From Burkholderia sp. GAS332 (GTDB lineage Bacteria; Pseudomonadota; Gammaproteobacteria; Burkholderiales; Burkholderiaceae), in contig FSRV01000003.1 of the NCBI GenBank assembly GCA_900142905.1, forward strand, positions 682,001 to 746,000: DNA of 64,000 bases, in the 5' to 3' direction. The position numbers and the translations under genes were made by a program. Within the stretch, counting starts at the first letter, position 1; each line of letters starts with the position of its first letter. This document shows, one piece after another, positions 34,095 to 62,573 of the stretch. The notes beneath the pieces were generated by a model. It did no database searches, had not been told where the DNA came from, and saw only the letters and a program-made list of their open reading frames with translations.

Positions 34095-34373
34095 ATGATG
34101 GTCAAAGGAGGGCGCTCTATAGCGCAGGCGATTGCAGCAGGCAACTTTCACCAGATCACGGCTTACCGCACGACCGAATCCGGAACCCGCCGCATTGTGC
34201 GGCACTACGATCCGCCTGCGTGCGAGTCACTGGATGAGGTTATCGAGTCCTATCGCAGGCTGTTTGGCACCCTGACCGAAGGCTTTACCGCAGAAGGTAG
34301 CCGTATCGCTGGTGGCTCGAGTCGAGGACGCTTCATTGAGGAGGTGTTGGATGTTACGGAGCGTCTTCGGTAG
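34095..34373 (+). CDS. Small conserved protein of unknown function, family copy A
   Basis: TGAGGAA precedes an ATGATG start; the product has 92 residues. It shares 79 of 92 positions with copy C at 62295 and the first 16 codons with the relic at 40832. Visible features are a short helix-like AQAIAAG, a basic segment YRTTESGTRRIVRHYDPPAC, an acidic helix SLDEVIESYRRLF and a Gly/Ser-rich SRIAGGSSRGR. There is no signal peptide, membrane segment or recognised domain. The variants are mostly conservative (F/Y, T/S, I/V), which indicates a protein under selection. It lies downstream of the acyl-CoA ligase and upstream of a TetR gene. Its function is unknown. Confidence 0.7.
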   Translation: MMVKGGRSIAQAIAAGNFHQITAYRTTESGTRRIVRHYDPPACESLDEVIESYRRLFGTLTEGFTAEGSRIAGGSSRGRFIEEVLDVTERLR

Positions 34374-34576
34374 CGTTGTCATGTCCGACCTGCCGACGAG
34401 CGTGGCCACACAGGCGCGAGGCGCGGGAGAACTGGTTTCGCCATTCAAGAGACGACGCGGACAGTAGGATGACGCATCTTGATCGCGTTGTGCTGATACT
34501 TGCAAAGCTCAATGCGTGCCTGTTTATCTTAATGTAAGAACGTATTTATGCTTTTATCGATGCTCCGCTCGCTTGT

Positions 34577-35239
34577 ATGAAACGCCGCCGACTCACACGC
34601 GAACAGAGTACAGCCCAGAGGCGCCTGCGCCTGGTCTGCGCCGCGCAGGCTGTCTTTATGAAGAAAGGGTTTGTTGCGACGAGTGACGAAGACATTGCCA
34701 AGGCGGCGGGACATACGCGGGGCGCGTTCTATGCGAACTTTGGCAGCAAACAGGAACTGTTCCTGGAATTGCTCCAGCGCGACCACGAGACGTTGCCCGC
34801 AGAACTCCATGGATTTTGTCACGAAGAAGCGCCGCGCGAACAGATGGAAGCGCGTGTGCTGGAATATTTCGGTAACCTTCAACGCGACAACGAGAGCTTG
34901 CTCCTATGGGTGGAGGCGAAGCTGCTGGCGATGCGTGATGGTCGGTTTCGGGCGTGCTATAACACGTTGCTGCAAGAAAAGCTTGACCTTCTGACTGCTT
35001 ATATTCGCCAGTTTTTGATGGGCGCCGACACACCATTGCACCTGCCCGCCGAAACCCTCGCGATGGGATTGCTGGGATTGCGCCACGGAGTCCGGCTCTT
35101 CCACATGGTGGATCCGCAGCGCGTGACGGGCGAGATTGTAGAGTTCGCACTTTCAGAGTTATTTATGCGAGCACTATTGGGCGGAAGACGGAATAGCGCG
35201 TTGGTGCACGCTGTCTGGCATGGCTGGAAGGCTGTCTAA
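34577..35239 (+). CDS. TetR-family regulator
   Basis: This 220-residue regulator has the DNA-binding domain at residues about 15-60 (LVCAAQAVFMKKGFVATSDE, then AAGHTRGAFYANFGSKQEL), in the style of AcrR-like repressors, and a helical ligand domain with LLLWVEAKLLAMRDGRFRA. No clear palindrome was found upstream. Neighbours are the small copy-A gene and an IS701-type relic; its target may be the preceding ligase operon or a gene now lost. ATG 34577 was used because it gives the usual N-terminal length. Confidence 0.85.
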   Translation: MKRRRLTREQSTAQRRLRLVCAAQAVFMKKGFVATSDEDIAKAAGHTRGAFYANFGSKQELFLELLQRDHETLPAELHGFCHEEAPREQMEARVLEYFGNLQRDNESLLLWVEAKLLAMRDGRFRACYNTLLQEKLDLLTAYIRQFLMGADTPLHLPAETLAMGLLGLRHGVRLFHMVDPQRVTGEIVEFALSELFMRALLGGRRNSALVHAVWHGWKAV

Positions 35240-35493
35240 CCGTGCATTTCCGCTGCCTTCACAAGAACTGCGAAGGCGCGCTGTAGCGTGTGGCGGATTT
35301 CTTGCGACTGCTGTCCCCGTAGGACGCCAAAGGCACATTGCCGAAGACTACGCGGTGCGATCCACCGCAATCGTGATCGCTGGCCAGTCAGCGTCGAAGG
35401 ATCGGTCGCATATCCTTGCCCAAGGAGCTTCGCCTCGGACAATACTCGCGGGCGCGGCGCAGCCTCGATAAAAAGCATGAACGTATATAACAC

Positions 35494-35832
35494 ATGGTCT
35501 ATGCCCTGCGTCTGATGGCCACACGGCAGACGCGGGCCAATGTTCCGGGCCGCGAGTGGGAGATCGAGATCGGCTTTGAAGCAGCCACCGGCGAATGTGG
35601 GCTGAGCCAGTATGAGGTTCGCCGATGGCGGGGTTGGTATCGTCATATCACCCTCGCACGGCTCGCTCATGCTGCGCTCGTTACCCTGCGTGTCCACAGC
35701 AACGACTCCTGTAGACCTGATGCGGCTGAGTTTCCAGGCAAGCTGGTGGCGTACGCGCCAGTGGCGCGCGCAGCAGTCACGCTACCGAAGGCGCAACCGC
35801 ACGCTCACGACATTAAAAATCTACGGTTGTAG
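35494..35832 (+). pseudogene. C-terminal relic of an IS701-type transposase
   Basis: The translation WEIEIGFEAATGECGLSQYE and VRRWRGWYRHITLARLAHA matches the end of IS701/IS4-group transposases, where the Glu of the DDE triad lies in the IExxFExxKGExGLDxYEVR motif. The preceding part (35240-35494) shows only decayed fragments in other frames and no catalytic Asp region. The tail ends near 35832, where the relic of a TetR control region begins; insertion may have removed that regulator. Confidence 0.65.
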
Positions 35833-36460
35833 TACTAAGAATTCCATGCTCGCGACTTAGTCGCTCAGCCATCAGTCACCACTAGGGTTAACAACGTTAG
35901 CGAATCGCGAGGCAACTGGGTAAGCTGGTAAGCACTGTTAACCAAAGGGGTCGTAATAATCGTGTTGCCTCGCTCACCTTTCTGTGCTGTGAAAAATGTT
36001 TTTCATTGCGGCAGGAACCGTTCACGTCAATTCGTTTCGGACGAGGTCGAATTAAATCCTTACCTTTCCCCACCTCGAGGGCGCTGGATTCCCCGCTTGA
36101 CGAGGTAAAGCGGGCGCTCTGGATGATGTCAGTCGCCGATGGAATTCGCCGAGTCGAACTGGGTGTACTGATCGGTCTGCATTGAGAAGGTGTCGAACCA
36201 TCGGAGCAACGCGGTGCGCATGCCCGGCAAGCCATGGAAATTTGCGAAACCGTGGCTTGCACGGACGAGGGACGCTACCTATCGCGGCGAATAGGATATC
36301 GAAGTGCTGCGTGATACGGCTGTTCGCAGGCTCAGATCGATGCACTAACGAAAGCGGGAATTTTGCTTAGTCATCCGCCGTCAGACGACCTTGCCAAGAC
36401 GCAAGACGCAAGACGCAAGACAGTGACGTCACTGCGTGACAAATTTTAAGCGAGGAAACC
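35833..36460. other. Relic control region and undefined DNA upstream of DUF485-actP
   Basis: Read on the minus strand, about 36010 down to 35850 resembles the TetR control region at 26620-26770, including both operators and the regulator's first codons (GACTGATGGC). The rest, 36010-36460, holds no gene I can support; it ends with a short ACGCAAG triplet repeat at 36399-36419 and the promoter of the DUF485 gene. Confidence 0.5.
35887..35942. promoter_or_regulatory. Relic or shared TetR operator pair
   Basis: GTTAACA-A-CGTTAGC (35887-35901) and GTAAGCA-C-TGTTAAC (35928-35942) match the two operators at 26690-26745 in reverse order, with the same 41-bp distance between centres. The regulator gene that should follow on the minus strand is missing, but the TetR at 26750 could still act here on the actP operon. 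Confidence 0.6.
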
Positions 36461-36781
36461 ATGTCTCAACCCTCCGCAAAATGGCGGCAGAAGATGCGGA
36501 CCGAATCAGATTTTATGGAGCTCGTGACCAATCGTGCACGGCTGCGATGGGGGTTGTCCTGCTTCACTCTCGCGCTGTTCTTTGGTTTCGTTTTCGTCAC
36601 CTCCACCGCGCCCGAGGCGCTGGGGCGCGACCTGCCTCATATCCGATTCCCGATCGGAATCACCTTGGCGCTGACAATGGTCGCGCTCATGGTCGGGATT
36701 ACTGGTACTTACGTCATCCTATCGAATTGTTGGCTCGACCCCCTATCCAAGAAAATCGCAGAAAATGAGGCCACGCAATGA
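36461..36781 (+). CDS. DUF485 membrane protein, partner of ActP
   Basis: This 106-residue protein has two membrane segments (LSCFTLALFFGFVFVTST and IGITLALTMVALMVGITGTY) and the DUF485 pattern, FMELVTNRARLRWGLS before the first. DUF485 genes (yjcH in E. coli) nearly always precede actP and overlap it, as here (ATGA at 36778). The role is unproven; it probably assists the symporter. GCGAGGAAACC gives a ribosome site. Confidence 0.9.
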   Translation: MSQPSAKWRQKMRTESDFMELVTNRARLRWGLSCFTLALFFGFVFVTSTAPEALGRDLPHIRFPIGITLALTMVALMVGITGTYVILSNCWLDPLSKKIAENEATQ

Positions 36782-38454
36782 TCGCTCGCTTCCCCTTCGC
36801 CCTCGCACTTTCCGCTTTGCCTGGCGTCGCTCTTGCCGCGGAACCGGGTCGACGAGACCTGAACTGGGTCGCTATCGGGATGTTTCTTGTCATCGTTGCG
36901 GTCACCCTTGTCATCACCTTACGCTCTGCGAATCATGCCCAATCAAAGAGCGAATTTTATGCAGCCGGTGGTTCCATCACCCCGTTCCAAAACGGCCTGG
37001 CCATCGCCGGCGATTTCCTGTCGGCAGCGGCCTTTCTGGGGATCTCCGCGCTGGTCTATTCCCGGGGATTTGACGGCCTGCTCTATGCCATCGGCTTCCT
37101 TACCGGTTGGCCAGTCGTCCTGATCCTGATGTCCGAACGGTTGCGCAACCTCGGTAGATACACCTTTGCCGACGCGGTCTCGTTCCGGCTGGATCACCCG
37201 TTGGTCCGACTCGTGGCTGCGATCGGAAGCCTCGTCGTCGTCCTGTTTTACCTCATCGCTCAACTCATCGGGGCAGGAAAGATCATCGAACTGCTCTTCG
37301 GCCTACCGTACTGGATGTCCATCGTCGGGGTCGGCCTGTTGATGATCTTCTACGTCACGGTTGGCGGCATGACGGCGACGACTTGGGTGCAGATCACGAA
37401 AGCCTGCCTGCTTCTGGGCGGCGGCACTCTGATGGCGTTCATCGTTCTGAGCCATTTCAATTTCAGTATCGTTCAACTGCTGGCCAAAGCCACCAGCGCC
37501 CACCCCGCGGGCGATGCCATCCTCCGCCCTGGAGGCCTGTTCGCCGAACCGGTCTCGGCAATATCTCTTGGCCTCGCACTCGTTTTTGGCACGGCGGGCT
37601 TGCCGCATATCATGATGCGTTTTTTCACCGTGAAGGATTCGACCGGCGCGCGCACCTCTGTCTTCTACGCGACCATTATCGTCGCGTATTTCTGCCTCGT
37701 GATCCCGCTTATTGGTTTCGGGGCCGTCGCTGTGCTGATGCCGGATGCAAGTTACTTCAATCTGGGTGCGACCGGAGCGTACAACCCAATCACCGATCTG
37801 ATTGGCGGACCGAACATGGCGGCCATTCACCTAGCCCAGGCGACTGGCGGATCACTGCTGAAAGGCTTCATGTCGGCGGTTGCTTTCGCCACGATTCTCG
37901 CGGTCGTCGCCGGTTTGGCGCTGGCAAGCGCCTCCGCCGTCAGCCATGACATCTACGGCCAGATTATCGCCCGCGGAAAAGCCGACGAACGCCAGGAATT
38001 GAAGATCTCGCGAATCTCCGTAGTGGTCACCGGCTTGGCATCGGTTGCGTTGGCCTATGCCTTCGAAAACCAGAACGTGGCATTCATGGCCGGGTTGGCA
38101 CTCGCCGTTGCGGCGAGCTGTAATTTCCCAGTTCTGTTGATGGCGCTCTTCTGGCGCGGGACCACGTCGCGGGGTGCAGTCGCAGGCGGTCTTGCGGGGC
38201 TGGTCGCGGCGGTAACGTTGGTTGTGCTTAGTCGCACGGTCTGGGTGACATTGTTCGGCTACAAGGTGCCCATCTTCCCCTACGAAAACCCTGCGCTGTT
38301 CTCGATGCCGGTCGCCTTCGCATTCATCTGGGTATTCTCCATCGCCGATCACAGTCACCGTGCCGAAGCGGAACGTGCTGCTTTTGACAGGCAGTTTGTC
38401 CGTTCTGAGATTGGTCTTGCCCCGAGTGAGACAGATGCAGCGCTGGAGGCTTGA
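36778..38454 (+). CDS. actP: Sodium:solute symporter, cation/acetate symporter type
   Basis: This 558-residue polytopic membrane protein has a short signal-like N-terminus (MIARFPFALALSALPGVALA), about 13 hydrophobic segments, and SSS-family motifs such as FYAAGGSITPFQNGLAIAGD, FLSAAAFLGISAL and GTAGLPHIMMRFFTV. ActP-type proteins import acetate and other short monocarboxylates with sodium. In this setting it may import the pathway substrate acid rather than acetate. It is followed by a broken fumarylacetoacetase gene, so DUF485-actP-fah formed an operon. Confidence 0.88.
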   Translation: MIARFPFALALSALPGVALAAEPGRRDLNWVAIGMFLVIVAVTLVITLRSANHAQSKSEFYAAGGSITPFQNGLAIAGDFLSAAAFLGISALVYSRGFDGLLYAIGFLTGWPVVLILMSERLRNLGRYTFADAVSFRLDHPLVRLVAAIGSLVVVLFYLIAQLIGAGKIIELLFGLPYWMSIVGVGLLMIFYVTVGGMTATTWVQITKACLLLGGGTLMAFIVLSHFNFSIVQLLAKATSAHPAGDAILRPGGLFAEPVSAISLGLALVFGTAGLPHIMMRFFTVKDSTGARTSVFYATIIVAYFCLVIPLIGFGAVAVLMPDASYFNLGATGAYNPITDLIGGPNMAAIHLAQATGGSLLKGFMSAVAFATILAVVAGLALASASAVSHDIYGQIIARGKADERQELKISRISVVVTGLASVALAYAFENQNVAFMAGLALAVAASCNFPVLLMALFWRGTTSRGAVAGGLAGLVAAVTLVVLSRTVWVTLFGYKVPIFPYENPALFSMPVAFAFIWVFSIADHSHRAEAERAAFDRQFVRSEIGLAPSETDAALEA

Positions 38455-38455
38455 A

Positions 38456-39641: not shown

Positions 39642-39723
39642 GAGATAACTGTGCGCAAGACAAGCAACAACCTTGAATACGTAGCGAATTCATAGGTCGA
39701 AAAACTAGGGACGGCAGGAGACA

Positions 39724-40794
39724 ATGATGAACAAAAGAATGACTTTGCTGGCAGCTATACTTGGTTTCACCATGTGTGTGAGCAGCTTTGCTCAGAGTAG
39801 CGTGACACTATATGGTCTGGTAGACGGTGGCTTGCTTTACACGAGCAGGACGCTCGATTCGGCAACCGGTCGTGATGCGGGCCCGCAGTTTGCGCTGATT
39901 GACGCCGGACTGACGGCTTCGGGATTTGGTATCACTGGAACGGAGGACCTGGGAGGGGGGCTGAAGGCGACGTTCAAGCTCGAAAGCGGTGTCAGCGTGG
40001 CCAACGGCGGTTTCAACAACTCAAATGGTAACCAGTTTGGCCGCCAGGCCTGGGTGGCGCTGGGTGGAAACTTTGGGGAGTTCAAGGCGGGCCTGCAGTT
40101 CTCGCCGTTCTTTCTGGCCGTCCATGAGTCAGATCCGCGCAGCCTTTCCGAATTCGGCAGTGGCCTCATCAACTACGTCGATAACGTCCTTGTAACCGGT
40201 CTCTTTAATGCGAATGCGGTGTCATACACCAGTCAGACCCTCGCCGGATTCACGGGTAGCGTGATGCTCGCACTGGGTGGTGAAGCAGGTAGTTTCCAGG
40301 CGGGCCGCCAGTATTCCGCGAGTCTGAAATATGAGTCTGGCGGCCTGATGATCAATGCGGCAATGTATGACGGCAATGGTGGCGGTGCACTGATAACGCC
40401 GATTCCCAGTACCGAGGCGTTCGAAGGCCGTACGCTCGGCGCCGCATACAAGTTCGGTCCGCTGATTGCCAAGGCGTCGTTCGTCAACTACAAGGTCTCG
40501 GGATCTTTCAATAACAACGTTTACGGCGGAGGTCTCGATTGGCTGGTTCAGCCACAGCTTGATGTTAATGGTGGCGTCTGGGTGACGAGCGATCGAAACG
40601 ACACGAAGAATCACTCGCTGTTGGTGGCGCTGGGCGCGGAGTGTTTTTTGTCGAAAGCGACCACACTCTATGCGCAAGTTGGCCTCGTGAACAATCACGG
40701 TGCGATGAACACGGGCCTGTCTATCAGCAGTGCATTGTATGGGGCGCCGGGCACTACGCTGGGCGTTGATCTGGGGGTGCGACACGCCTTCTAA
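39724..40794 (+). CDS. Outer membrane porin (Burkholderia OmpC-like)
   Basis: This 356-residue protein starts with a signal peptide (MMNKRMTLLAAILGFTMCVS, cleavage after SFAQ) and continues SSVTLYGLVDGGLLYTSRT, FGITGTEDLGGGLKATFKLE and FGRQAWVALGGNFGEFKAG, the standard opening of neutral Gram-negative porins in this group. The C-terminus ends in VDLGVRHAF, with terminal Phe as required by the Bam machinery. It would form a trimeric 16-strand channel and could pass the catabolic substrate. GGCAGGAGACA gives the ribosome site. Confidence 0.92.
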   Translation: MMNKRMTLLAAILGFTMCVSSFAQSSVTLYGLVDGGLLYTSRTLDSATGRDAGPQFALIDAGLTASGFGITGTEDLGGGLKATFKLESGVSVANGGFNNSNGNQFGRQAWVALGGNFGEFKAGLQFSPFFLAVHESDPRSLSEFGSGLINYVDNVLVTGLFNANAVSYTSQTLAGFTGSVMLALGGEAGSFQAGRQYSASLKYESGGLMINAAMYDGNGGGALITPIPSTEAFEGRTLGAAYKFGPLIAKASFVNYKVSGSFNNNVYGGGLDWLVQPQLDVNGGVWVTSDRNDTKNHSLLVALGAECFLSKATTLYAQVGLVNNHGAMNTGLSISSALYGAPGTTLGVDLGVRHAF

Positions 40795-40831
40795 ATGGCC
40801 CCGGTCAGCTTTCACAGATGCACATGAGGTA

Positions 40832-40880
40832 ATGATGGTCAAAGAGGGACACTCGATCGCGCAGGCAATCGCCGCGGGTC
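40832..40880 (+). pseudogene. 5' relic of the small conserved family, copy B
   Basis: ATGATGGTCAAAGAGG starts a frame that reads MMVKEGHSIAQAIAAG, matching the first 16 residues of copies A and C, with the same upstream CCGGTCAGCTTT and GAGGTA context. It then becomes unrelated. The break lies at about 40880; the following bases to 41057 contain no gene I can name. Confidence 0.65.
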
Positions 40881-41057
40881 GATGCAGCGCTCTCTTGCGG
40901 TGTCGATTTTTCTCTGGCGCGTCAATCACGCACCGTGCGACCCCGCTTCACTGGAGGCGAAATGATGAAAACCCGTCGTATCACGCTGGTCTGTCCACCT
41001 CAAGAAGCTTGAACGCGTCACCCTTGCTGATCGGGGTGCTCCCACCGCAGACTTGGT

Positions 41058-41447
41058 CCAACGCCAGCACCGACGGCATCGCCGTATAGCCGGCCGTGCC
41101 GATCGCCATGGCGTCCCTGGTGGTGAATGCATCTGGAATCTTGACCAGCCACTCGCCTTTCACGCGTGCCTTTTGCGCGAATCCGCCGTGATGGGTCTGG
41201 CTGAGACCCCAGCCGTTGGCGACGACGCGATCGCCGACAGCGATGCCGGGATACGAGGAGGCCTCGACAGTGCCGGCAAAATCAATTCCGGCGATCAGGG
41301 GGAACTGGCGTATGACCTCGGCGTAGCCGCTCAGTGCGAGCGCATCCTTGTAGTTCACCGTTGAATAGTCAATCCTGACGGTGACGTCTCCAGGCATGAG
41401 ATCGTGCTCACTCATGTCGACCACGCTGGCCGAAATCTTGTCACCGG
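41058..41447 (-). repeat. 390-bp direct repeat, copy B
   Basis: This is the partner of the segment at 17253-17642. The homology starts and stops abruptly, at TTGGTCCA on the left and just before the A-run on the right. Confidence 0.85.
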
Positions 41448-41479
41448 CTTTTTTTTGCGATAACTGCTTTAAATGTCAT
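41058..41479 (-). pseudogene. Truncated, frameshifted acuI copy
   Basis: ATG 41479 starts MTFKAVIAKK, but eight A residues at 41452-41459 shift the frame so that a stop follows at once; the next frame then reads 120 residues of AcuI identical to copy A (VVDMSEHDLMPGDVTVRID onward) up to 41058. The rest of the gene is missing and the frame runs on into unrelated codons to 40981. Two base differences in 375 bp show a recent duplication. Confidence 0.85.
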
Positions 41480-41506
41480 TTTCATTTCCTGTGCTCGATT
41501 CCTATA

Positions 41507-41611
41507 TTAATCGGAGTACCAATCAGGGTTGATGTCGAAGATCTGAATCCCCTGCGGCTCCCACTTCAGGTTGTGGGCCTCAATGAAGGCGCGCACCCAG
41601 GGCTGCAAGTT
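41507..41611 (-). pseudogene. Unidentified C-terminal gene fragment
   Basis: About 33 codons read PWVRAFIEAHNLKWEPQGIQ, then IFDINPDWYSD and stop. The composition is protein-like, but I do not recognise the family. No start is present; the upstream sequence is unrelated. Confidence 0.3.
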
Positions 41612-41779
41612 GGTTCAGGTGTCCGCATCGGGATTCCGTTTCTGGCGGTTAGCGAGCATGGGCTCACCACTCTGCCCGCAGACGCTTTCAGTTAGGGAAA
41701 TGCCAGGCAGGTGCGGTTGAGTTTGCCGCAGACGTCGAGTGCATCGAGGGTGGAGTGGGGCTAGCAGCTTTTGCTCGCG

Positions 41780-41960
41780 CAGGTTGACCTGCGCAATGCC
41801 GGCATTGTTTGCCAGCAGATTAAGCCGTCCGGCATCTGTTTGAAGGCTCGCGTCGAGCGATGTCGCATCGGTAATAGCCAGCGTAGACGAAACCGCCAGC
41901 TTGGGTTCGAGTTCCGCTTCGAGCGCGTTCGGTGCGGCGGGCTGAATATCGCGCTGACGG
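41780..41960 (-). pseudogene. SDR-family relic
   Basis: One frame reads AELEPKLAVSSTLAITDATS, LDASLQTDAGRLNLLANNAG, IAQVNL, the Asp-to-NNAG section of a short-chain dehydrogenase. The Gly-rich cofactor motif and the YxxxK site are not found in any frame nearby. Confidence 0.5.
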
Positions 41961-42093
41961 CAACGCGTCAGCCGGCAGTGGCAAAACGGCGTGCCGTTGC
42001 CTATTCAATGCCTCCTCCCAAGCCGGTCACAAAGGCAAGCTTGCTCACGGGGGGGGCCGATTTGCATTGTGCGAAGACCGGCGGGGCAACGCC

Positions 42094-42753
42094 TCAGGGC
42101 CTGTACTCGAGAACCTTGAACACCTGCGTGAATGCTTGCCGGCTTCCTTGCAGCAGGGTTGCGCGCCCCTCGCGGAGCGCATGTGCTGGTGTGATCTGGC
42201 GCAGGGCCAGCGCCATGAACGTTTCCATGTCGCACTGTATCTTGACGTCGGCGGGCTCTTCGCTGGGGCCGGAGCGCACCAGCACCTTCCCGTCGTTCAC
42301 CGGGACATGGAAGACCTCCGCCCCCACGTGAAATTCGTACAACGCTCGCAAGCCTGCGCTTGACGCCGGATCGCTCGAACCCGTCAGGCACAGAGCGATG
42401 AGTTCCGCACGGGCACTCGACGGATCGATGCGCTCGTCGACCGGCAAGCCAAGACCCCAGAGTCCAAGCGCGATCACCGGTTTGCGCAGTTGTTCGCCCA
42501 ATTCCGTCAGTTCGTAAGCTGGCGCCGCGGCGGGCGCTGGCAGCGTGGTCGATTGGATAACATCGCTCTCCACCAGCATGGCGAGACGCTCGGACAGCCG
42601 GTTTGCGCCCATGGCAGGCAGGATCGCCAGCAGATCCTTGAACCGTTTCGGACCCAGCAGGAGTTCGCGGATCACGAGCAGTGTCCACCGATCCCCGAGG
42701 ACGTCCAGCGCCCGGGCCATTGGGCAAAGTTGGCCGTAGGTTTTGTTTGGCAT
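42094..42753 (-). CDS. HxlR-family regulator with SCP2-like C-terminal domain
   Basis: Residues 1-100 form the HxlR winged helix: YGQLCPMARALDVLGDRWTLLVIRELLLGPKRF and GANRLSERLAMLV. At 219 residues it is about twice as long as simple HxlR proteins; the second half (VPVNDGKVLVRSGPSEEPAD, then IQCDMETFMALALRQITPAH, ALREGRATLLQG) follows the strand-helix pattern of SCP2-type lipid-binding domains. It may sense a hydrophobic ligand. ATG 42753 fits the usual start MPNKxYGQxC; a longer frame begins at 42834. It is divergent from the FadD-like ligase operon at 43113. Confidence 0.85.
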   Translation of the reverse strand: MPNKTYGQLCPMARALDVLGDRWTLLVIRELLLGPKRFKDLLAILPAMGANRLSERLAMLVESDVIQSTTLPAPAAAPAYELTELGEQLRKPVIALGLWGLGLPVDERIDPSSARAELIALCLTGSSDPASSAGLRALYEFHVGAEVFHVPVNDGKVLVRSGPSEEPADVKIQCDMETFMALALRQITPAHALREGRATLLQGSRQAFTQVFKVLEYRP

Positions 42754-43112
42754 GTCACATTGTACAAGGCCCCGCGCAAGCGAAGCGGGGCGAAACGCGA
42801 TAGTCACCGACCAGGCGGGAAGCCTGCCACGCAAACCCGATGGTGGTCAGTCCGCCGGGGCTAGGCCCCATGACCTGCGCGACCACGGGTGAGTCTGGGC
42901 TCCACAGTGTTCGCCACATTAACGACTATATCATTTGTATAGTAATATCGCTATATAAAGCGTATATTGACGGACGTAACCGCAGCCTGCGGTCCACGCA
43001 TCGTTGGTCTTCGACTCGGGCGATTCTCGCCTGACGTTGCCGCCAGCGGGCATGACTCAGTAGTGGGCCCGACTGCATGAGGCCTTCGCATTAGCGGACT
43101 ATGGAGACCCAA

Positions 43113-44744
43113 ATGAGCAAAAGACACTGGATCCGGTCGTACGGCTCGAACCCCCCCGAGATCGACGCCGATCGCTATCCTTCCGTGAATGCGCTGCTGC
43201 AAAGCGCAATGTGCCAGTTCTCCGGCAAGCCAGCCTTCCGCGGCGTCGGTCGGACGCTGATCTATGCGGATGTCGACCGTCTCTCGTCCGCATTCGCCGC
43301 TTACCTGCAAAAAGTGGTCGGCGTGAACAAAGGCGATCGTGTGGCTGTGATGCTGCCGAACGTGCTGTCGTTTCCGATCGCCTTCATTGCCATCGCAAAA
43401 ATCGGCGGCATCCAGGTCAACGTCAATCCGCTATACACGGCGCGGGAGCTCGAGCATCAGCTTAACGACTCGGGCGCCGAAGTGATCGTCGTTCACAGCG
43501 GTTCAACGTCCACCTTTGCGCAAGTGGCTGGCAAGACGCGCGTCAGGAACGTGATCACAGCCGGTCCCGACGACGGCGGCGCTGCGAGTCCCGGTCCCGC
43601 GATCAAAGCGTCGCTGTGCGAAGGAATCACTCTACAAGCAGCTATCGGCCTGGGCGAGAAGCTTGAATTCGATCCGGTGACAGTGAGCGGCACCGATTTG
43701 CTCTTCCTGCAATACACCGGCGGCACGACCGGGTTCTCGAAGGGCGCCGCGTTGTCGCACCGTAATCTCATCGCCAACATCGAGCAGTTCAAGGCCTTCA
43801 TGCCCGATGCGCAGCGGCCCGGCGAGGAGGTTGTCGTGACCGCGATTCCGCTGTACCACATCTTCGCGCTCATGGTGAACTTCCTGACCTACTTCTCCGT
43901 CGGCGCCGAAAACTGGCTCGTAGTCAACGCGCGAGATACCGATGCTTGCATTGATGTGCTGAAGGCCGCGCGACCGACAATGTTTGCGGGTGTCAATACG
44001 CTGTACGCCGGGCTGGCCGCCCATCCACGCCTGACTGAGGTGGACTGGTCGAGACTGAAGCTTTCTGCCGGCGGCGGGGCGGCGGTGATCGACGTTATCT
44101 CGGAGCGGTGGAAATCGATGACGGGCAGCTTCATTCGCGAGGGCTACGGGTTGTCGGAGACTTCGCCCGTCGTTTCTTTTAACCCGCAGTTCATTAGCGA
44201 CTTCACTGGCAGCACGGGCCTGCCCGTGCCTTCCACCGATGTCAGGCTGCTGGGCGACAAGGACGGGGAGGTCGGCATTGGCGAGTCCGGAGAGATCTGT
44301 GTCAAGGGACCGCAGGTGATGTCCGGATACTGGGAGGATCCCGAGGCAAACGCCAAAGCGTTCACCGCTGACGGTTATTTCCGCACGGGTGATGTCGGCA
44401 TCTTCGATAGCGAGGGCTTCCTCAAGATCGTTGACCGCAAGAAGGATATGGTTCTCGTCTCGGGCTTTAACGTCTACCCAAACGAAGTGGAAGCGGTCGC
44501 GACCACCTTTCCCGGCGTCGCTGAGTGCGCGTGCATCGGCGTGCCGGACGAAAAGACAGGGGAGGCGCTCAAGCTGTTCGTCAGCAAGGAACATGGGGCC
44601 CACGTAACTGCTGAGGCCCTGGTCGCTCACTGTCGTGCCGGCATGGCGGCCTATAAGGTGCCCAAGACTATCTGTTTCGTCGACGCACTTCCGAAATCGA
44701 CCGTGGGAAAGATCCTTCGACGCGAGCTTCGCAACATTGACTGA
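43113..44744 (+). CDS. Long-chain fatty acid-CoA ligase (FadD-like)
   Basis: This 543-residue ANL enzyme has the AMP signature LQYTGGTTGFSKGAALSHRN, the GYGLSETSP motif, YFRTGDVGIFDSEG, the FadD-type linker DRKKDMVLVSGFNVYPNEVE and the C-terminal Lys in STVGKILRRELR. FadD proteins form acyl-CoA from long-chain acids at the inner membrane; related members act on steroid or terpenoid side-chain acids. GGAG lies 6 bases before ATG 43113; ATG 43101 is an alternative. The AT-rich promoter region at 42925-42970 (TTGTATAGTAATATCGCTAT) is shared with the divergent HxlR gene. Confidence 0.88.
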   Translation: MSKRHWIRSYGSNPPEIDADRYPSVNALLQSAMCQFSGKPAFRGVGRTLIYADVDRLSSAFAAYLQKVVGVNKGDRVAVMLPNVLSFPIAFIAIAKIGGIQVNVNPLYTARELEHQLNDSGAEVIVVHSGSTSTFAQVAGKTRVRNVITAGPDDGGAASPGPAIKASLCEGITLQAAIGLGEKLEFDPVTVSGTDLLFLQYTGGTTGFSKGAALSHRNLIANIEQFKAFMPDAQRPGEEVVVTAIPLYHIFALMVNFLTYFSVGAENWLVVNARDTDACIDVLKAARPTMFAGVNTLYAGLAAHPRLTEVDWSRLKLSAGGGAAVIDVISERWKSMTGSFIREGYGLSETSPVVSFNPQFISDFTGSTGLPVPSTDVRLLGDKDGEVGIGESGEICVKGPQVMSGYWEDPEANAKAFTADGYFRTGDVGIFDSEGFLKIVDRKKDMVLVSGFNVYPNEVEAVATTFPGVAECACIGVPDEKTGEALKLFVSKEHGAHVTAEALVAHCRAGMAAYKVPKTICFVDALPKSTVGKILRRELRNID

Positions 44745-44794
44745 CCGCCGCGTCGCGCTTCGAACCGCCAAACCAGGAAAAACGGAGACAAACC

Positions 44795-44863
44795 ATGAAC
44801 ATCTTGCACGCTGATGCCCGCGTTGACGGCACCACTGGTGCGGGCGCGAGGTGCCCGCAATGA
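44795..44863 (+). CDS. 22-codon upstream ORF coupled to the GMC gene
   Basis: ATG 44795 follows ACGGAGACAAACC and the frame (MNILHADARVDGTTGAGARC) ends as ATGA on the GMC start codon. The GMC gene itself has no good ribosome site, so translation of this peptide may deliver ribosomes to it. It may also be the stump of a deleted gene. Confidence 0.35.
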   Translation: MNILHADARVDGTTGAGARCPQ

Positions 44864-46489
44864 GTGCTTCCTACGACTTCGACTACATCGTCATCGGCTC
44901 AGGCTTCGGGGGCAGCGTGTCCGCTTGCCGGCTGACCGAGAAGGGCTATTCGGTTGGCGTGATGGAGATGGGCCGGCGTTGGACGGCCGAGGATTTTCCC
45001 AGGACCAACTGGGACGCGCGGCGCTGGATGTGGAAACCTGGCCTGAAAATGTTCGGCTTCTACAACATGCGCATTTTCCGCCACGTGATGGTCTTGAGCG
45101 GCAACGCGGTCGGCGGCGGCTCGATCACCTACGCCAACGCCTTGCTGGTTCCGCCCGACAGAGTGTGGGAGGAGGGTTCCTGGGCAGGCCTAACGGATTG
45201 GAAGCGCACCATGCCGCAGTACTACGTCATGGCGGAAAGGATGCTGGGCGTCACCGAGAACAAGATTCTGGGCGAGGCTGATCTGCGGCTCAAGAAGATG
45301 GCGGACTTGCAGGGCGTGGGCGACACGTACCACAGCGGCCGTGTCGCGACTTTCTTTGCTCCCAAGGGCGAGGCCGGCGGCAAGACCTATCCCGATCCCT
45401 ACTTCGGCGGCGAAGGTCCGGAGCGCGGAACTTGCGTCGGTTGCGGCGGCTGCATGGTGGGTTGCAAGCACAACGCCAAGAACACACTCGACAAGAACTA
45501 TCTTTACTTCGCGGAAAAACGTGGTGTGCAGATCTTTGCCGAAACCAAGGTGGTAGACGTGCGCCCGCTCAACGGCAAGGCGGACGGTAGTGACGGCTAC
45601 GAGGTCTTCACCGAGCGTTCGACTGCCTGGTTCGACAAGCAGCGGCGTAGCTTCCGCTGCCGGGGCGTGGTATTTGCGGCTTCTTCATTGGGCACGATGG
45701 ACTTGTTGTTCCGGCTCAAGCACAGCGGCTCCCTGCCGCGCATCAGCGACGACCTCGGCAAGCGCGTACGCACCAATGCCGAGTCCCTGGTCGGCGTGCG
45801 CTTTCCAGCCAAAGACAAGAGCATGTCGCCCGGCGTGGCAGGTGGCGCTGGCGTCTATATCGACGAGCGTACGCACATCGGTGCAGTACGTTACCCGGAA
45901 GGCTCGGACGCGACAGGCCTGATGATGACCTTGCTGTCCGGCGGGCGTGCCGGGTGGACGCGGATTTTTACCTGGCTATGGACGCTGCTGACCCATCCGC
46001 TGAAGGCGGCGCGGGTGCACAACCCGTTCGGATTTGCGCGCCAGACCGTGCTGTTCGTGGTGATGCAGACGGTAGACGCTTTTATCAACATGCAGTTCAA
46101 GCGCCGCTGGTATTGGCCGTTTGGAAAGCAGTTGTGCACCGAGGGCGACCCGATTCCCACCTTCATCCCTGAAGCCAATGCCTTTGTGGAAAAGGGGGCA
46201 AAGGCGCTGGGCGGCATCCCTACGACCTTGCTGACCGAGATTCTGTTCAACATCCCCACGACGGCGCACTGCATGGGTGGGTGCGCGATGGCGGACTCTC
46301 CCGAGCGCGGTGTGATGGACGTCCAGAACCGCGTCTTCGGTTATCGGAATCTGCTGATCTGCGACGGCTCGATGCTCAGTTCCAACCTCGGTGTGAACCC
46401 CAGCCTGACCATCACCGCGCTGACCGAGCACGCGATGTCCCACATTCCCGCGAAATCGCCCCTTGCAACCATCCTTCCGAGTGCTAACC

Positions 46490-46512
<23 letters not shown>
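44860..46512 (+). CDS. GMC-family FAD oxidoreductase, cholesterol-oxidase-like
   Basis: This 550-residue protein starts with the FAD motif DYIVIGSGFGGSVSACRL and has the second flavin-contact stretch VLSGNAVGGGSITYANAL, plus the C-terminal GMC block YRNLLICDGSMLSSNLGVNP and SLTITALTEHAM. Between them is CVGCGGCMVGCKHNAKN, with cysteines spaced C-x2-C-x2-C-x3-C as in a [4Fe-4S] site. This layout is that of the membrane-linked cholesterol-oxidase-like GMC group, which oxidises an alcohol and passes electrons on. It is 44% or so alike by eye to the paralogue at 60354 (not computed). It overlaps the OYE gene by 23 bp. Confidence 0.87.
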
Positions 46513-47752
<1,240 letters not shown>

Positions 47753-47802
47753 CCGTTCGCCCCTTTCTACACATAGAAAACCTGACCCTGGAGATCAATG
47801 CA

Positions 47803-48771
47803 ATGCGTCATCTACTGAAGGCAAGCGTCCTCGGACTTGCTCTGTCAGCAACACTCATTTCAGCGGCAGCGGGCGCGACTGACGTTTCGCCAGATAGCGC
47901 GACGATAAGTCCGCTGACGCTGCAACAGGAATTGGAGGTCAACTGGAAGAACGTGCCAACGCAAACCATCACGGCAGACGGAGTGACCTTCGCCTACCGT
48001 GAGCTTGGCAAAAGCCACGGCGGCACACCAGTGGTGTTCCTTACCCATCTGGCCGCCGTGCTAGACAATTGGGACCCGCGGGTGGTGGATGGCTTCGCGG
48101 CGGAGCATCACGTCGTCGCGTTCGACAATCGGGGCGTCGGTGCTTCCAGTGGCTCACCGTCGAAATCGATCGAGCAGATGGCTGATGATGCCATCACATT
48201 CATCAGGGCCATGGGGTTCAAGCAGGTAGACCTTTTTGGCTTTTCGATGGGCGGCATGGTCGCTCAGGAAATCGCGTTGAAGGACCCGCAGCTTGTGCGC
48301 AAGATTATTCTCGCGGGGACAGGTCCCGCCGGTGGGGACGGCATCAGCGATGTGACCGGAGTCACCTTCTACGACATGCTTCGAGGCTTCTTCACCCACC
48401 AGGATCCGAAGCAGTATCTGTTCTTCACCCGTACGCCCAACGGCATCGACGCTGGCAAAGCGTTCCTCGCGCGATTGAATGAGCGCTCGGAGAACCGCGA
48501 CAAGGAAATCTCCGTGAGCGCGTTTCTGGCGCAGTTGGATGCGCTGCGCGCCTGGGGCCACAAGGAACCCGACGACCTGTCGGTCGTGAAGAACCCGGTG
48601 TTAGTTGTCAATGGCGACAGCGACAGGATGGTCCCAAGCAAGGATTCGCGAGACCTGGCGGCGCGCCTGCCGAACAGCCACCTCATCATCTATCCCGATG
48701 CCGGCCACGGCGCGGTGTTTCAGAATCAGGCCGACTTTGTGCCCAAGGCGCTCGAGTTCCTTGCTCAATAG
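47803..48771 (+). CDS. Exported alpha/beta hydrolase
   Basis: This 322-residue protein has a signal peptide (MRHLLKASVLGLALSATLIS, cleavage near AAAGATD) and a full hydrolase: THLAAVLDNWDPRVVDGFAA, FDNRGVGASSG, nucleophile Ser in LFGFSMGGMVAQE, acid in NGDSDRMVP and His in PDAGHGAVFQNQ. GGAG precedes ATG 47803. It is a paralogue of the cytoplasmic hydrolases at 48928 and 50649. Export implies action in the periplasm, perhaps on an ester taken up through a porin. Confidence 0.87.
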   Translation: MRHLLKASVLGLALSATLISAAAGATDVSPDSATISPLTLQQELEVNWKNVPTQTITADGVTFAYRELGKSHGGTPVVFLTHLAAVLDNWDPRVVDGFAAEHHVVAFDNRGVGASSGSPSKSIEQMADDAITFIRAMGFKQVDLFGFSMGGMVAQEIALKDPQLVRKIILAGTGPAGGDGISDVTGVTFYDMLRGFFTHQDPKQYLFFTRTPNGIDAGKAFLARLNERSENRDKEISVSAFLAQLDALRAWGHKEPDDLSVVKNPVLVVNGDSDRMVPSKDSRDLAARLPNSHLIIYPDAGHGAVFQNQADFVPKALEFLAQ

Positions 48772-48927
48772 GCTTTGAGGAAAACGCTCGCCTGGACGCG
48801 CAATCTTCGCAGGTGGTGCGTCGAAAGGGCGAAGCGACCGTTTGAGACAAAGACCTCGTGGTCCGGTAGGTCGCACCGAACGTGAGGCTCTCGTACTTCT
48901 ATCTGGCGTTTTCATAAGGATCCCAAC

Positions 48928-49776
48928 ATGACCGATACACACTTCACCGCGCCAACCCGCTTCGTCGAAGTCGGTGGCGATAGATTCGCCTATCGCCGCT
49001 GGGGCAACACCAGGACTACTGACCAGCCGCCATTGTTCTTCCTCCAACACTTCCGCGGCGGAATGGATCATTGGGACCCGCTCATGACAGATGGCCTGGC
49101 GGCAGGGCGCGAGGTGATCCTTTATAACGGTCGCGGTATCGCATCCTCTTCCGGTAAGCCGCGCACTCGAATTGAACATATGGCCGACGACGCAGCCGCG
49201 GTCATACGAGCACTGGGTATTCGCAAGGTTGATGTTTTAGGTTTTTCGCTCGGCGGTTTTCAGGCTCAGGATCTGACGCGACGTCATCCTGATCTGGTCC
49301 GCAAGCTCATGCTGCTCGGCACTGGACCCCGTGGCGGCAATCCGGATTCCGAGCCTGGGGTGCTGGAGGCGGCACCGCGCCCGGTCCCCACGGTAGAGGA
49401 CTTCCTGTTCCTGTTTTTCGGCCGGTCGGAGGCCGCGCGACAGGCCGGGAGCGACTTCTGGACACGCCGGCACCAGCGCGTGGACCAAGACTCGCCGAGT
49501 TCCCCCGCAGTGATACAGGCTCAGATCGAGGCAAACATGTACTACTTGCCAAAACTGGACCCTAAAGATCCTTTCGCTCATCTGCGCGAAATCATGCAGC
49601 CGACCTTCATCCTTAATGGCATCAATGACGTGATGGTTCCAACCATCAATTCCTGGTACATGGCGCAAAACATTCCGAATGCGCAGCTATTCATCTATCC
49701 CGACGCCGGCCATGCAGCTCAATTCCAGTACCCTGAGCGGTTCTTGACGCATGCCGTGCAGTTTCTCGGCGAGTGA
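48928..49776 (+). CDS. Alpha/beta hydrolase
   Basis: This 282-residue hydrolase shares the plan of its neighbours: LQHFRGGMDHWDPLMTDGLA, LYNGRGIASSSG, nucleophile Ser in VLGFSLGGFQAQD, NGINDVMVP for the acid region and YPDAGHAAQF for the His. The acid position reads NDV, with Asp present. It lacks a signal peptide. It has its own ribosome site (ATAAGGATC) and lies 156 bp after the exported hydrolase, so the two may be co-transcribed. Confidence 0.87.
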   Translation: MTDTHFTAPTRFVEVGGDRFAYRRWGNTRTTDQPPLFFLQHFRGGMDHWDPLMTDGLAAGREVILYNGRGIASSSGKPRTRIEHMADDAAAVIRALGIRKVDVLGFSLGGFQAQDLTRRHPDLVRKLMLLGTGPRGGNPDSEPGVLEAAPRPVPTVEDFLFLFFGRSEAARQAGSDFWTRRHQRVDQDSPSSPAVIQAQIEANMYYLPKLDPKDPFAHLREIMQPTFILNGINDVMVPTINSWYMAQNIPNAQLFIYPDAGHAAQFQYPERFLTHAVQFLGE

Positions 49777-57501: not shown

Positions 57502-57540
57502 TCCGAGCCGATATCCACTACCACCTTCCTGAAGAGAGTA

Positions 57541-59222: not shown

Positions 59223-60071
59223 ATGAACATGCAGGTCACTGGGGCACAGGATAGTCACGCGATTCAACCGCCGAGCGAATCGCTTATTCCGGGAGGGCGG
59301 CCAACTATCTTCGTGACGGGTGCTGCTTCCGGGATCGGTCGCGCCTGCGCCGAACTGTTTGCGCGGCGCGGTTGGTTCGTAGGCCTCTACGATATCAATG
59401 CGGACGGTGCCGCCGCGGTCGCCGCGACCCTGGGTGAGGGCAACGCAGTCTCTGGCGCGCTCGACGTGAGCAATCCTGAAGCGTGGCAGCGGACGCTCGC
59501 AGCATTCTGGGCCGAAAGCGGCCACCGGCTCGACGTGCTGCTCAATAATGCGGGCATTCTTTCATCGGGGCAGTTCCAGGAGGTTTCCATAGCCAGACAT
59601 TATGCGATGCTTGACGTGAATGTCCGGGGAATGATCACGGGTTGTCACTGCGCATTCCGGTACCTGCAGAGGACGCCCGGTTCCCACGTGATCAATATTG
59701 CGTCGGCCACCGCGATCTATGGCCAGCCCGAGCTTGCGACTTACTCGGGAACCAAGTTCGCCGTGCGCGGATTCACCGAAGGGCTAGACCTCGAATGGAG
59801 CAAGCTCGGCATCCGCGTGAGCGACATATGGCCAAGCTTCGTCAAGACCGCAATGGCTGATGGCTTCGACCATATCCCCAGTGCAAAGTCACTGGGCATT
59901 CGGCTGATGCCGGCTGACGTCGCATCCACTGTGTGGACTTGTGCGACGACACGGAGACTCATTCACAAAACGCACTGGACTGTCGGCCTGCAAGCCGGGC
60001 TACTGTCTCTCGCCACGCGTCTGGCGCCGCCAGCACTCAGCCGCTGGGTCGTCCGGCATATCGCGTTATGA
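59223..60071 (+). CDS. SDR-family oxidoreductase
   Basis: This 282-residue SDR has FVTGAASGIGRACAELFARR, an Asp (LYDINADG) that selects NAD, LLNNAGILSSG, and the active site NIASATAIYGQPELATYSGTKFA with YSGTK. AAGGAGACAGTCGAA precedes ATG 59223, so the longer frame to 59145 was not used. It lies 218 bp after the ligase and before the second GMC gene; the alcohol produced by one might be the substrate of the other. Confidence 0.88.
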   Translation: MNMQVTGAQDSHAIQPPSESLIPGGRPTIFVTGAASGIGRACAELFARRGWFVGLYDINADGAAAVAATLGEGNAVSGALDVSNPEAWQRTLAAFWAESGHRLDVLLNNAGILSSGQFQEVSIARHYAMLDVNVRGMITGCHCAFRYLQRTPGSHVINIASATAIYGQPELATYSGTKFAVRGFTEGLDLEWSKLGIRVSDIWPSFVKTAMADGFDHIPSAKSLGIRLMPADVASTVWTCATTRRLIHKTHWTVGLQAGLLSLATRLAPPALSRWVVRHIAL

Positions 60072-60353
60072 ACCGGGTACTCATGCCTGTGTCCCCGATA
60101 CCCGGCGGCAGTCTGCGCTCACGGCAAGGTCGTTATGCAAATGCTGCGCGATTGACGTAGGGTCTTGTTATGAGAATTCAGCGGGGATTACTTATAGAGA
60201 TTAGTATATCTAATCAATTATTAATCGCACGAACTTGTTCACGAAAAAACTTTTTCATGTTCGAGCGCGTCGGCGCCTTGCCGCCGCACAGATATGTCGA
60301 GGTGTCCATGCACGGTGAAGACTCGCCCGGATGCACAGGAAGGGGAATTTAAT

Positions 60354-62018
60354 ATGGAAAACACTGCTTTCGACTTCGACTGGCTGGTTATCGGCTCAGG
60401 CTTCGGCGGCAGCGTCGCCGCGCTGCGCCTCGCGGAAAAGGGTTATCTCGTCGGTGTGGTCGAGCGTGGGCGGCGCTATCGTGATGAAGACCTCCCCAGG
60501 TCGGCCTGGCAGTTCGGCCGCTATTTGTGGGCACCTGCACTGGGGTTGAAGGGCATCATGCGCATGGCGCTATTTCGCCACATCTTTACGCCCACCCAGA
60601 ATGCCGTCGGCGGGGGCAGTATCGTGTACGGCGGCGTGCTGTACCGCGCCAAGCCAGGGTTCTTCGAGGATCAGCAGTGGCGCGCGCTCGGCAACTGGGA
60701 CATGCTGCTGCGCCCGCACTACGATACGGCGGAACGCATGCTCGGCGTAAAGACGGTGCCATTTGATTCGCCCAGCCAGCAGTTGGCTCGGGAAATGGCG
60801 CAACACTTCGGCGCCGGAGACACATTTACTCGCGCACCCTGCGGGGTGTTTTTCGGCGAGCCAGGCAAGTTAGTCAAGGATCCCTATTTCGGTGGTGAAG
60901 GTCCCGACCGCACCGGATGCACGCGTTGCGGTGCATGCCTCGTGGGCTGCCGCGTCGGCGCCGTGAACTCGTTGTTGAAGAACTACCTGTGGTTCGCCGA
61001 AAAGCACGGCGTGCAGATCATGGCCGAACGCGAGGTTGTTGACGTCACTCCGCTCGGTGCGCCCGACGGCAGTGAAGGCTATCGCGTAGTCACGCAGCGT
61101 CCCGGCGCGTGGTTCGCCCGCGATAGACAGACCCACACCGCGCGCGGCGTGGTGTTCGCGGGTGGGTCGCTCGGCACCAACGAACTGCTGGCCAACTGCA
61201 AGCATGGTGGGTCGCTGCCTGGGGTCAGCGACCGCCTCGGCGAACTGGTGCGCACCAACAGCGAATCGATCCTGACTGTGCGCCTGCCCGAGGACCGCAA
61301 AACCTGGAACGATGTAACTGCGAGCTCGAGCGTGCATGTCAATTCCGATACGCACATTGAGTTCCTCACCTACGGTCGCAACGCCGACTTCGTGAGCTTG
61401 CTCTACACGGTGTTGGTCGGCAAGGGCAACCGCCTGACGCGGCCGCTTAAGTGGCTGGGCAAAATCGCGCAGCATCCGGTGCAGTGGCTCAAGACGCTGT
61501 GGCCGGTCGGCTGGAGCCGACGCATGGTGATGCTGCTGGTCATGCAGGCGCTAGACAATGCGATCGCGCTGCGCGCCAGGAAACGTTGGTTGCGTCGCGG
61601 ATACCGACTCGCCACAGAGCAGAATCGCGCCAAACCCAATCCGACGTACATCGATGACGCCAACCGGGCAGCACAGTGGCTGGCCCAGCATACCGGCGGC
61701 ATAGCCCAAAGCAACGTGCTCGAAGCGCTGGTGAACATTCCGACCACCGCCCACGTATTGGGCGGTGCCGTCATCGGCACCGATTCTGCGAGCGGCGTGG
61801 TCGATCAATATCTGCGCGTTTTTGGCTACCGGAACCTGCTGGTGTGCGACGGTGCCGCTATGCCGGCAAATCCCGGAGTGAATCCGGCGCTGACGATCAC
61901 AGCACTTGCCGAGTACGCGATGGCGCAGATTCCGACGGCTGACGTGGCAAAACTGCAGCCTCGCACCAGGAGCCGGACTTCGCGTTGGGCCGGGGCGTTT
62001 TTGCATGAGCTTCGTTAG
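60354..62018 (+). CDS. GMC-family FAD oxidoreductase, cholesterol-oxidase-like (paralogue)
   Basis: This 554-residue protein follows the same plan as the enzyme at 44860: FAD motif DWLVIGSGFGGSVAALRLAE, TQNAVGGGSIVYGGVLYR, a CTRCGACLVGCRVGAVNS segment with cysteines spaced C-x2-C-x2-C-x3-C, and the end block YRNLLVCDGAAMPANPGVNP and ALTITALAEYAM. The second block keeps the Asn of the GMC active-site end. GGAAGGGG precedes ATG 60354. The AT-rich 280-bp leader (60200-60250) holds the probable promoter. It is followed by the copy-C small gene. Confidence 0.87.
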   Translation: MENTAFDFDWLVIGSGFGGSVAALRLAEKGYLVGVVERGRRYRDEDLPRSAWQFGRYLWAPALGLKGIMRMALFRHIFTPTQNAVGGGSIVYGGVLYRAKPGFFEDQQWRALGNWDMLLRPHYDTAERMLGVKTVPFDSPSQQLAREMAQHFGAGDTFTRAPCGVFFGEPGKLVKDPYFGGEGPDRTGCTRCGACLVGCRVGAVNSLLKNYLWFAEKHGVQIMAEREVVDVTPLGAPDGSEGYRVVTQRPGAWFARDRQTHTARGVVFAGGSLGTNELLANCKHGGSLPGVSDRLGELVRTNSESILTVRLPEDRKTWNDVTASSSVHVNSDTHIEFLTYGRNADFVSLLYTVLVGKGNRLTRPLKWLGKIAQHPVQWLKTLWPVGWSRRMVMLLVMQALDNAIALRARKRWLRRGYRLATEQNRAKPNPTYIDDANRAAQWLAQHTGGIAQSNVLEALVNIPTTAHVLGGAVIGTDSASGVVDQYLRVFGYRNLLVCDGAAMPANPGVNPALTITALAEYAMAQIPTADVAKLQPRTRSRTSRWAGAFLHELR

Positions 62019-62294
62019 GGGCGCTGGAATCGACCATCGATGCATCCGACAGTTTTGACATGTTTGAGCCGGTGCGACGCGAACGAGGGCCGCCCGGCGC
62101 CCCGGTCGCTTCTTCTCTGGAGCGCTAGTGGGGGCATGGCGACAGGGCCACTCGCCCATCGTGACACTTCCGTCTGGCGACTGCAGCCGCTTCCTGCTCT
62201 GCGTCAATGCGAGCGGGATCGTGTCAGTGCCAACCCACCATACCGGGACTCGGAATCCTGGGGCCGGTCAGCTTCGAATCGTACACAGGAGGCA

Positions 62295-62573
62295 ATGATG
62301 TTCAGAAAGGGACGCTCTATCGCGCAGGCGATTGCAGCGGGCAACTATCACCAGATCACGATATATCGCACCACTGAATCTGGAACCCGCCGCATTGTGC
62401 GCCACTACGACCCGCCGGCGTGCGAGTCACTCGACGAGGTTGTCGAGAGTTATCGAGCGTTGTTTGGCAGCCTGAGCGAAGGCTTCACCGCAGAAGGCAG
62501 TCGTATCGCCGGTGGCTCGAATCGGGGCCGCTATATCGAAGACGTTTGCGACGTGACGGAGCGCCTTCGATAG
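62295..62573 (+). CDS. Small conserved protein of unknown function, family copy C
   Basis: ACAGGAGGC before ATGATG gives a strong ribosome site for this 92-residue protein. It differs from copy A at 13 positions, nearly all conservative. The upstream GGTCAGCTTCGAATCGTACA is shared with copies A and B, so the control region was copied with the gene. It lies between the second GMC gene and the OmpW gene. No domain is recognised; the Arg-rich centre and acidic helix could bind nucleic acid or a protein partner. Confidence 0.72.
   Translation: MMFRKGRSIAQAIAAGNYHQITIYRTTESGTRRIVRHYDPPACESLDEVVESYRALFGSLSEGFTAEGSRIAGGSNRGRYIEDVCDVTERLR

Follow-up and report, generated by a model that had tools for sequence, protein, structure and literature searches.

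Frpo elements of conjugative plasmids are described, in the excerpts of PMC9849209 and PMC11541004 on which we draw, as hairpins with reconstituted -35 and -10 boxes that use the transferred strand (T-strand) as a template and give early expression. Here we analyze a family of 92-residue proteins encoded in a 64,000-nucleotide stretch of Burkholderia sp. GAS332 (contig FSRV01000003.1, positions 682,001 to 746,000; hereafter the window), and a plasmid repeat from which the DNA upstream of the genes derives. The genome comprises 10,416,547 bases in 3 contigs and the window lies within contig C3 (804,682 bp). We consider it likely that the window genes are leading-region plasmid genes that were captured and retained in the host with loss of their hairpin promoter, and that they are not helpers of catabolism.

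The plasmid repeat resembles Frpo/ssi of F and ColIb-P9, as these are presented in excerpts of PMC9849209, PMC11541004, and PMC7736820. It is intergenic and upstream of presumed leading genes that would be templated by the transferred strand, it forms a long hairpin whose stem carries -35 and -10 boxes directed toward the gene, and there is more than one copy per plasmid. It differs in being a sequence family observed in Burkholderiales plasmids, with 13 copies on plasmid pOLGA2, a 16-nt spacing, and a GC-rich -10 box. The likeness is one of architecture. Like the leading-region anti-defence islands in the excerpted part of PMC11541004, the genes behind the repeat form a long run on one strand that heads for the transfer genes and includes genes for a methyltransferase, a zincin-like protease, and a DUF3560 protein, together with numerous small genes without assigned function. 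A difference is that none of the models searched convincingly matches the 92-residue family, and the main text of PMC11541004 nowhere contains the word Burkholderia.

The window contains two intact copies of the gene, w1 (34095..34373, plus strand, 91/92 amino acids) and w2 (62295..62573, plus strand). Each frame translates to 92 residues, with 13 differences between the proteins. The DNA of the two copies aligns over 333 nt (34043-34374 and 62242-62574) at 82% identity (E 9e-90), a likeness far beyond chance. A third copy, w3, is a stump on the plus strand (40797..40878; the leader contributes 35 bp and the gene 47 bp) that begins 2 bp past the stop codon of the porin gene directly before it and breaks off within codon 16. 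Its match covers 77-82 nt and is 75.6% identical to the pOLGA2 homologue (E 1.6e-8). The three copies have the leader and an ATGATG start in common. Translation more probably begins at the second ATG (34098 in w1 and 62298 in w2), because a GGAGG/GAGG string resembling a ribosome-binding site is only 2 nt upstream of the first. When the 10.4 Mb genome was searched at the protein level (E <= 1), no copy besides w1 and w2 was listed, the stump being too short for listing. The synonymous divergence (dS) between w1 and w2 (0.70) exceeds that between w2 and the Paraburkholderia ginsengiterrae copy (0.43), so w1 and w2 are not recent duplicates. A preliminary description of the window, made without database searches, had reported the three copies, their common upstream sequence and start, and the genes that precede them (acyl-CoA ligase for w1, porin for the stump, GMC oxidoreductase for w2), and all of this is borne out. 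Its placement of the copies at operon ends is inaccurate, as an OmpW gene follows w2 after 76 bp and a TetR gene follows w1 after 203 bp, both on the same strand.

On pOLGA2, which is typed conjugative, the DNA upstream of the 92-residue gene is an intergenic repeat. In a comparison with ten other intergenic regions, four match over 532-543 bp at 95.5-99.3% identity, another over 324 bp at 97.5%, and four further regions over shorter stretches, mostly at 72-82%; one of the regions compared (18351-19039 of L011) falls outside the repeat family. There are 13 copies on pOLGA2, matched over about 215-540 bp and all on the same strand (a 47-bp match at 42190-42236 is excluded from this number). Twelve of them end at most 47 bp from the start of a coding sequence (CDS), and the remaining copy is 258 bp upstream of one. 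The 13 genes behind them have no mutual similarity at E <= 0.01. Between 9,977 and 44,309, 46 consecutive annotated CDSs are all on the strand of the repeat and run in the direction of mobF and the gene for the coupling protein (46.6-52.5 kb). The plasmids pI and pBMUL01 have a comparable layout. From this gene order and orientation we infer that the repeat-bearing run is the leading region, in which the repeats, directly upstream of genes, would be oriented for templating by the T-strand.

Among 72,556 plasmid records, 219 contain the repeat (200 typed conjugative; Burkholderia, Pseudomonas, Citrobacter, and others) and two, the MPF_F plasmids pOLGA2 and pI, contain the 92-residue gene, in both cases in the region called leading by gene order. 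Of the repeat matches listed, 79/80 overlap no annotated feature (two listings with some records in both, and incomplete gene tables). In the genus, the repeat is present at E <= 1e-10 in 9 of 144 genomes, and GAS332 is not among them. Two of the pOLGA2 copies (L013, 39848-40045 and 42959-43157) match the repeat family on the opposite strand too and are imperfect long palindromes; in one of them, 64-nt arms are 77% complementary. A hairpin-core match of 76% in genome G512 (C1:4477282-4477410) is far from the catabolic-context 92-residue gene on the same contig and is perhaps in another mobile element. Plasmid pI (L028, NZ_LR699555.1) is typed non-mobilizable by MOB-suite, yet a MobF relaxase is annotated on it.

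The presumed transferred strand of the plasmid repeat folds much more stably than its shuffled counterparts (z -3.34, -6.72, and -3.78). We aligned 48 of the 49 listed copies (alignment A3; one L006 copy was omitted, and partial copies, such as those at pOLGA2 15640-15854 and 42190-42236, are unaligned). In the consensus hairpin 94.8% of cells are paired, compared with 33-44% when the partners are shifted by 1-3 columns. There are 105 two-sided changes, versus 30.0 (standard deviation 5.2) in shuffled alignments, and 0/500 shuffles reach the observed number. The spacer between the -35 and -10 boxes holds 76 of the 105, as expected if the spacer need only stay paired. The pattern TTGnnn-N16-TAnnnT occurs in 47/48 T-strands, in 0/48 gene strands, and in 5/960 mononucleotide shuffles. 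The arm that carries it would be the non-template strand for transcription toward the gene from single-stranded DNA (ssDNA). The boxes are thus in the stem and point at the gene from ssDNA, the -10 box with a match of 3-4 of 6. By this architecture the repeat looks like a Frpo-like ssDNA promoter.

The leaders in the window are remnants of this element. The w1 leader (33988..34094, plus strand) corresponds to the 107 bp of the plasmid repeat nearest to the gene and includes the arm A side only, without the promoter-bearing arm B; leader and gene together (33988-34381) match pOLGA2 29604-30000 at 78% (E 1e-86). Upstream of w2 there are two pieces on the plus strand. The distal piece (62173..62245) is 77% identical to pOLGA2 29458-29531 and contains what is left of the promoter arm that faces the opposite way, with TTGACG-N16-TGCAGT on the minus strand facing away from the gene and its partner arm gone. 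The gene-proximal piece (62243..62294) is separated from it by the loss of 128 bp of the element, including the other hairpin arm. The w2 leader, gene, and 3' flank (62243-62613) match pOLGA2 29660-30032 at 79%, and the plasmid-like flank (62574..62613, plus strand) ends 37 bp before the start of the next gene. The stump retains 35 bp of leader. No window leader has an intact hairpin with a promoter arm, and the promoter pattern is found in 0/3. Over the 320 nt upstream of the gene, the plasmid leader folds at z -3.78, w1 at z -1.42 (10/100 shuffles as good), and w2 at z +0.63 (75/100). The upstream element is copied, as the preliminary description said, but the idea of a promoter common to catabolic operons is not supported; the element is a decayed part of a plasmid repeat that stands before 13 dissimilar pOLGA2 genes. 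Of the 46 proteins of the pOLGA2 region, only the 92-residue protein was found in the window or in loci L003 (P. podalyriae) or L004 (P. ginsengiterrae) at E <= 0.01. With 13 dissimilar plasmid genes standing behind this same leader, a move from plasmid to this genome is simpler to assume than the reverse.

We inspected the surroundings of ten loci with an intact gene. Five are plasmids or have plasmid-like or integrative and conjugative element (ICE)-like gene content (L005, L006, L007, pOLGA2, and P. dioscoreae pI), and in all five a BamE-like lipoprotein gene comes next after the 92-residue gene. In L006 this call is from Pfam (PF04355, E 6e-8); on pOLGA2 and pI it is by annotation, and the L005 and L007 genes are 99% identical to that of L006 and 75% identical to that of pOLGA2, respectively. 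The BamE domain is in the neighboring gene and not in the 92-residue family itself. L007 keeps the pair though its 92-residue protein is only 46% identical and its BamE-like protein 75%. Near the gene, the plasmid-type loci encode a DUF5710 protein and a large protein that is annotated as ParB-like on pI and scores weakly in Pfam in L006 and L007. On pOLGA2, pI, and L007 there are DUF3560 genes as well. The pOLGA2 and pI homologues are 83% identical to w1.

The catabolic context comprises w2, L003, L004, and L024 (genome G512), where the gene is directly before an OmpW gene with GMC oxidoreductases nearby; w1 is between the acyl-CoA ligase and TetR genes. L024 is on a 4.7-Mb contig and is 96% like L003, and its OmpW protein match spans residues 100-242 only. 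L003 and L004 are seen on contigs of 22 and 20 kb and are not called chromosomal. OmpW matches at E <= 1e-70 were found in 29 of 144 genomes of the genus. The 92-residue gene is within 1.5 kb in three of these (GAS332, G503, and G512); of the other 26, one (G004) carries it elsewhere. The preliminary description had proposed a small accessory factor common to catabolic pathways, with its own copied promoter. All three window copies follow catabolic or porin genes, the order of gene and OmpW recurs in four genomes (GAS332, P. podalyriae, P. ginsengiterrae, and G512), and the protein is under constraint. Yet half of the inspected loci are plasmids or resemble plasmids or ICEs, the leader belongs to a repeat shared by dissimilar plasmid genes, and in most genomes that have an OmpW relative the gene is not beside it. 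We therefore regard a catabolic role as improbable; linkage of the homologues to catabolic genes is not general.

Another explanation gives the protein a role at the outer membrane, where it would work with the BamE-like lipoprotein on plasmids and with OmpW in other settings, for example by altering the surface of the new host in an exclusion-like manner. The next gene is of an outer-membrane type in both contexts, in five loci and in four genomes, and the stump comes after a porin gene. However, the neighbors of w1 are an acyl-CoA ligase gene and a TetR gene, the protein has no obvious signal peptide when its sequence is judged by eye, and genes of this type are common, so a few contexts prove little. 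We consider this role unlikely, though less so than the catabolic one.

Selection on the protein, which had been suggested earlier, is confirmed as purifying. The ratio of nonsynonymous to synonymous divergence (dN/dS) is 0.14 between w1 and w2, 0.10-0.15 between w1 and all nine other copies compared, and 0.10-0.16 when w1 and w2 are compared with one another and with L003, L004, and L024 (Fisher p 8e-11 to 5e-7 in four tested pairs of this set, from rounded counts). The L005, L006, pOLGA2, and pI proteins are identical, with 1 to 9 synonymous differences. These data bear on the idea that all window copies are functionless relics, which would fit the absence of the leader hairpin, the truncation of one copy, and the ratio between L003 and L024, which is not different from 1. 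Against it, two frames are intact, and dN/dS is 0.12-0.16 among w2, L003, and L004 (Fisher p 5e-7, 5e-7, and 1e-9, from rounded counts). The two intact window frames are apparently kept by selection, and we think it quite unlikely that they are dead.

The family has no assigned function in profile searches, in agreement with the preliminary description. No convincing match was found for 28 members in Pfam, PHROGs, or PADLOC (best E 0.016, 0.052, and 0.019), nor any match in NCBIfam for the two members tested (P0001 and P0002). Protein searches at three thresholds listed 20, 26, and 28 clusters, and the named-organism matches among those listed are hypothetical proteins of Paraburkholderia or Burkholderia. 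The family is sparse in Paraburkholderia, Burkholderia, and Caballeronia. In the genome samples searched, carriers are 2 of 118 relatives, 3 of 398 genomes of the taxonomic family, and 6 of 144 of the genus (GAS332 counted in all three), and 2 of 58 in a second genus. A species-genome scan gave five loci with the gene, and a phage search did not find it. The AlphaFold2 model of w2 is confident (mean predicted local distance difference test score 89.7), with the order alpha-beta-beta-alpha-beta-beta, and fold comparison gave no clear relative. The product is thus predicted to be a small alpha/beta protein lacking an obvious signal peptide. A distant relationship to the tyrosinase caddie protein MelC1 has a phmmer match to its credit (E 0.76, residues 25-63), along with a HYDP-like stretch that may be common to both. 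The match is not significant and methionine aminopeptidases score higher; MelC1 is not in the profile search list at E <= 10 or among the fold matches listed, which makes this relationship extremely improbable.

We propose that the gene of the 92-residue family belongs to the leading region of MOBF/MPF_F conjugative plasmids in Burkholderiales, where it would be the first gene behind a Frpo-like ssDNA promoter, with the BamE-like outer-membrane lipoprotein gene next. The transferred strand entering a recipient would fold to the hairpin, with arm B providing the -35 and -10 boxes, and RNA polymerase would transcribe the gene before second-strand synthesis. The repeat may in this way fire from ssDNA and give early expression. 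Given expression on plasmid entry, the product would most likely be an early establishment or anti-defence factor. The window copies probably descend from plasmid genes that moved with a partial leader into the 0.8-Mb contig, where the hairpin promoter was cut, the stump died, and the two intact frames came under selection. Today w1 and w2 may be expressed from neighboring conventional promoters, w2 perhaps together with OmpW. Direct computation gave the homology of gene and leader, the family of repeats, the covariation of the hairpin and its loss in the window, the direction of the promoter, and the low dN/dS.

Several points weigh against this proposal. The profile searches of the 28 members gave no anti-defence assignment. 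The hairpin was counted on the same alignment that yielded the structure, which favors the structure; the -10 match is partial, and mean best promoter scores are close (7.78 for the T-strand, 7.35 for the gene strand, and 6.89 for shuffled DNA). The leading region is called by gene order and orientation only, with oriT (the origin of transfer) not located, in plasmid gene tables that are stated to be incomplete. The 320-nt stretch upstream of w1 still folds at z -1.42. Taken alone, a 135-nt gene-proximal piece of the plasmid leader folds at chance (z -0.14), and so do the pieces from the window (z 0.85 and 0.63) and from L004 (z -0.37); since pieces of 130-135 nt fold alike, plasmid included, only the 320-nt comparison discriminates. 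In favor of the proposal, searches of the GAS332 genome found no intact repeat and no MobF/TrwC relaxase, DUF3560 protein, or 784-residue ParB-like protein; against this, the DNA search recovered the w2 remnant but missed that of w1, so decayed remnants can escape it, and the ParB-like search had no positive control. Between L003 and L024 there are 5 nonsynonymous differences and only 3 that are synonymous (dN/dS 0.54, Fisher p 0.42). The tree is weakly supported, at 0.685 for w1 with the plasmid-type copies and 0.434 for the other catabolic-context copies together, so captures cannot be counted.

The neighboring genes in the window are all on the plus strand. They are the acyl-CoA ligase upstream of w1 (32144..33748), the TetR-type regulator downstream of it (34577..35239), the Porin_4 porin upstream of the stump (39724..40794), the GMC oxidoreductase upstream of w2 (60294..62018), and the OmpW-family gene downstream of w2 (62650..63378). 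The GMC oxidoreductase resembles cholesterol oxidases, suggesting a substrate like a steroid or sterol, but is under the curated cut-off (NF058674, 580 bits, cut-off 850). A segment of about 438 bp occurs twice in the window in the same orientation (17249-17686 and 41054-41491, 96.8% identity). The first copy is almost entirely inside an open reading frame on the minus strand (16687-17673) and the second is 175 bp past w3, making the site next to w3 a possible recombination junction. The catabolic block at 41531-49143 shares 80-87% identity with the 4.7-Mb contig C1 of G512 (L024), where it is near the pair of 92-residue and OmpW genes. The window also contains an overlapping direct repeat of about 224 bp (5648-5871 and 5851-6074, 84%) and an inverted repeat of about 198 columns (26583-26779 and 35853-36044, 71% identity).

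On the proposed reading, an orphan gene beside catabolic operons becomes a marker of past plasmid entry, and the repeat family resembles a large ssDNA promoter set outside the enterobacterial models. Any gene behind the hairpin would be a candidate establishment or anti-defence gene, and early-entry gene sets in Burkholderiales become testable. More tentatively, and with a larger chance of being wrong than right, F-type plasmids of Burkholderiales may control about a dozen units as one regulon through a dedicated family of hairpin ssDNA promoters. Hosts may have repeatedly captured the 92-residue protein, removed the ssDNA switch, and kept the gene under conventional control beside outer-membrane genes as a resident host factor, perhaps one with a role at the cell surface or in opposing incoming plasmids.

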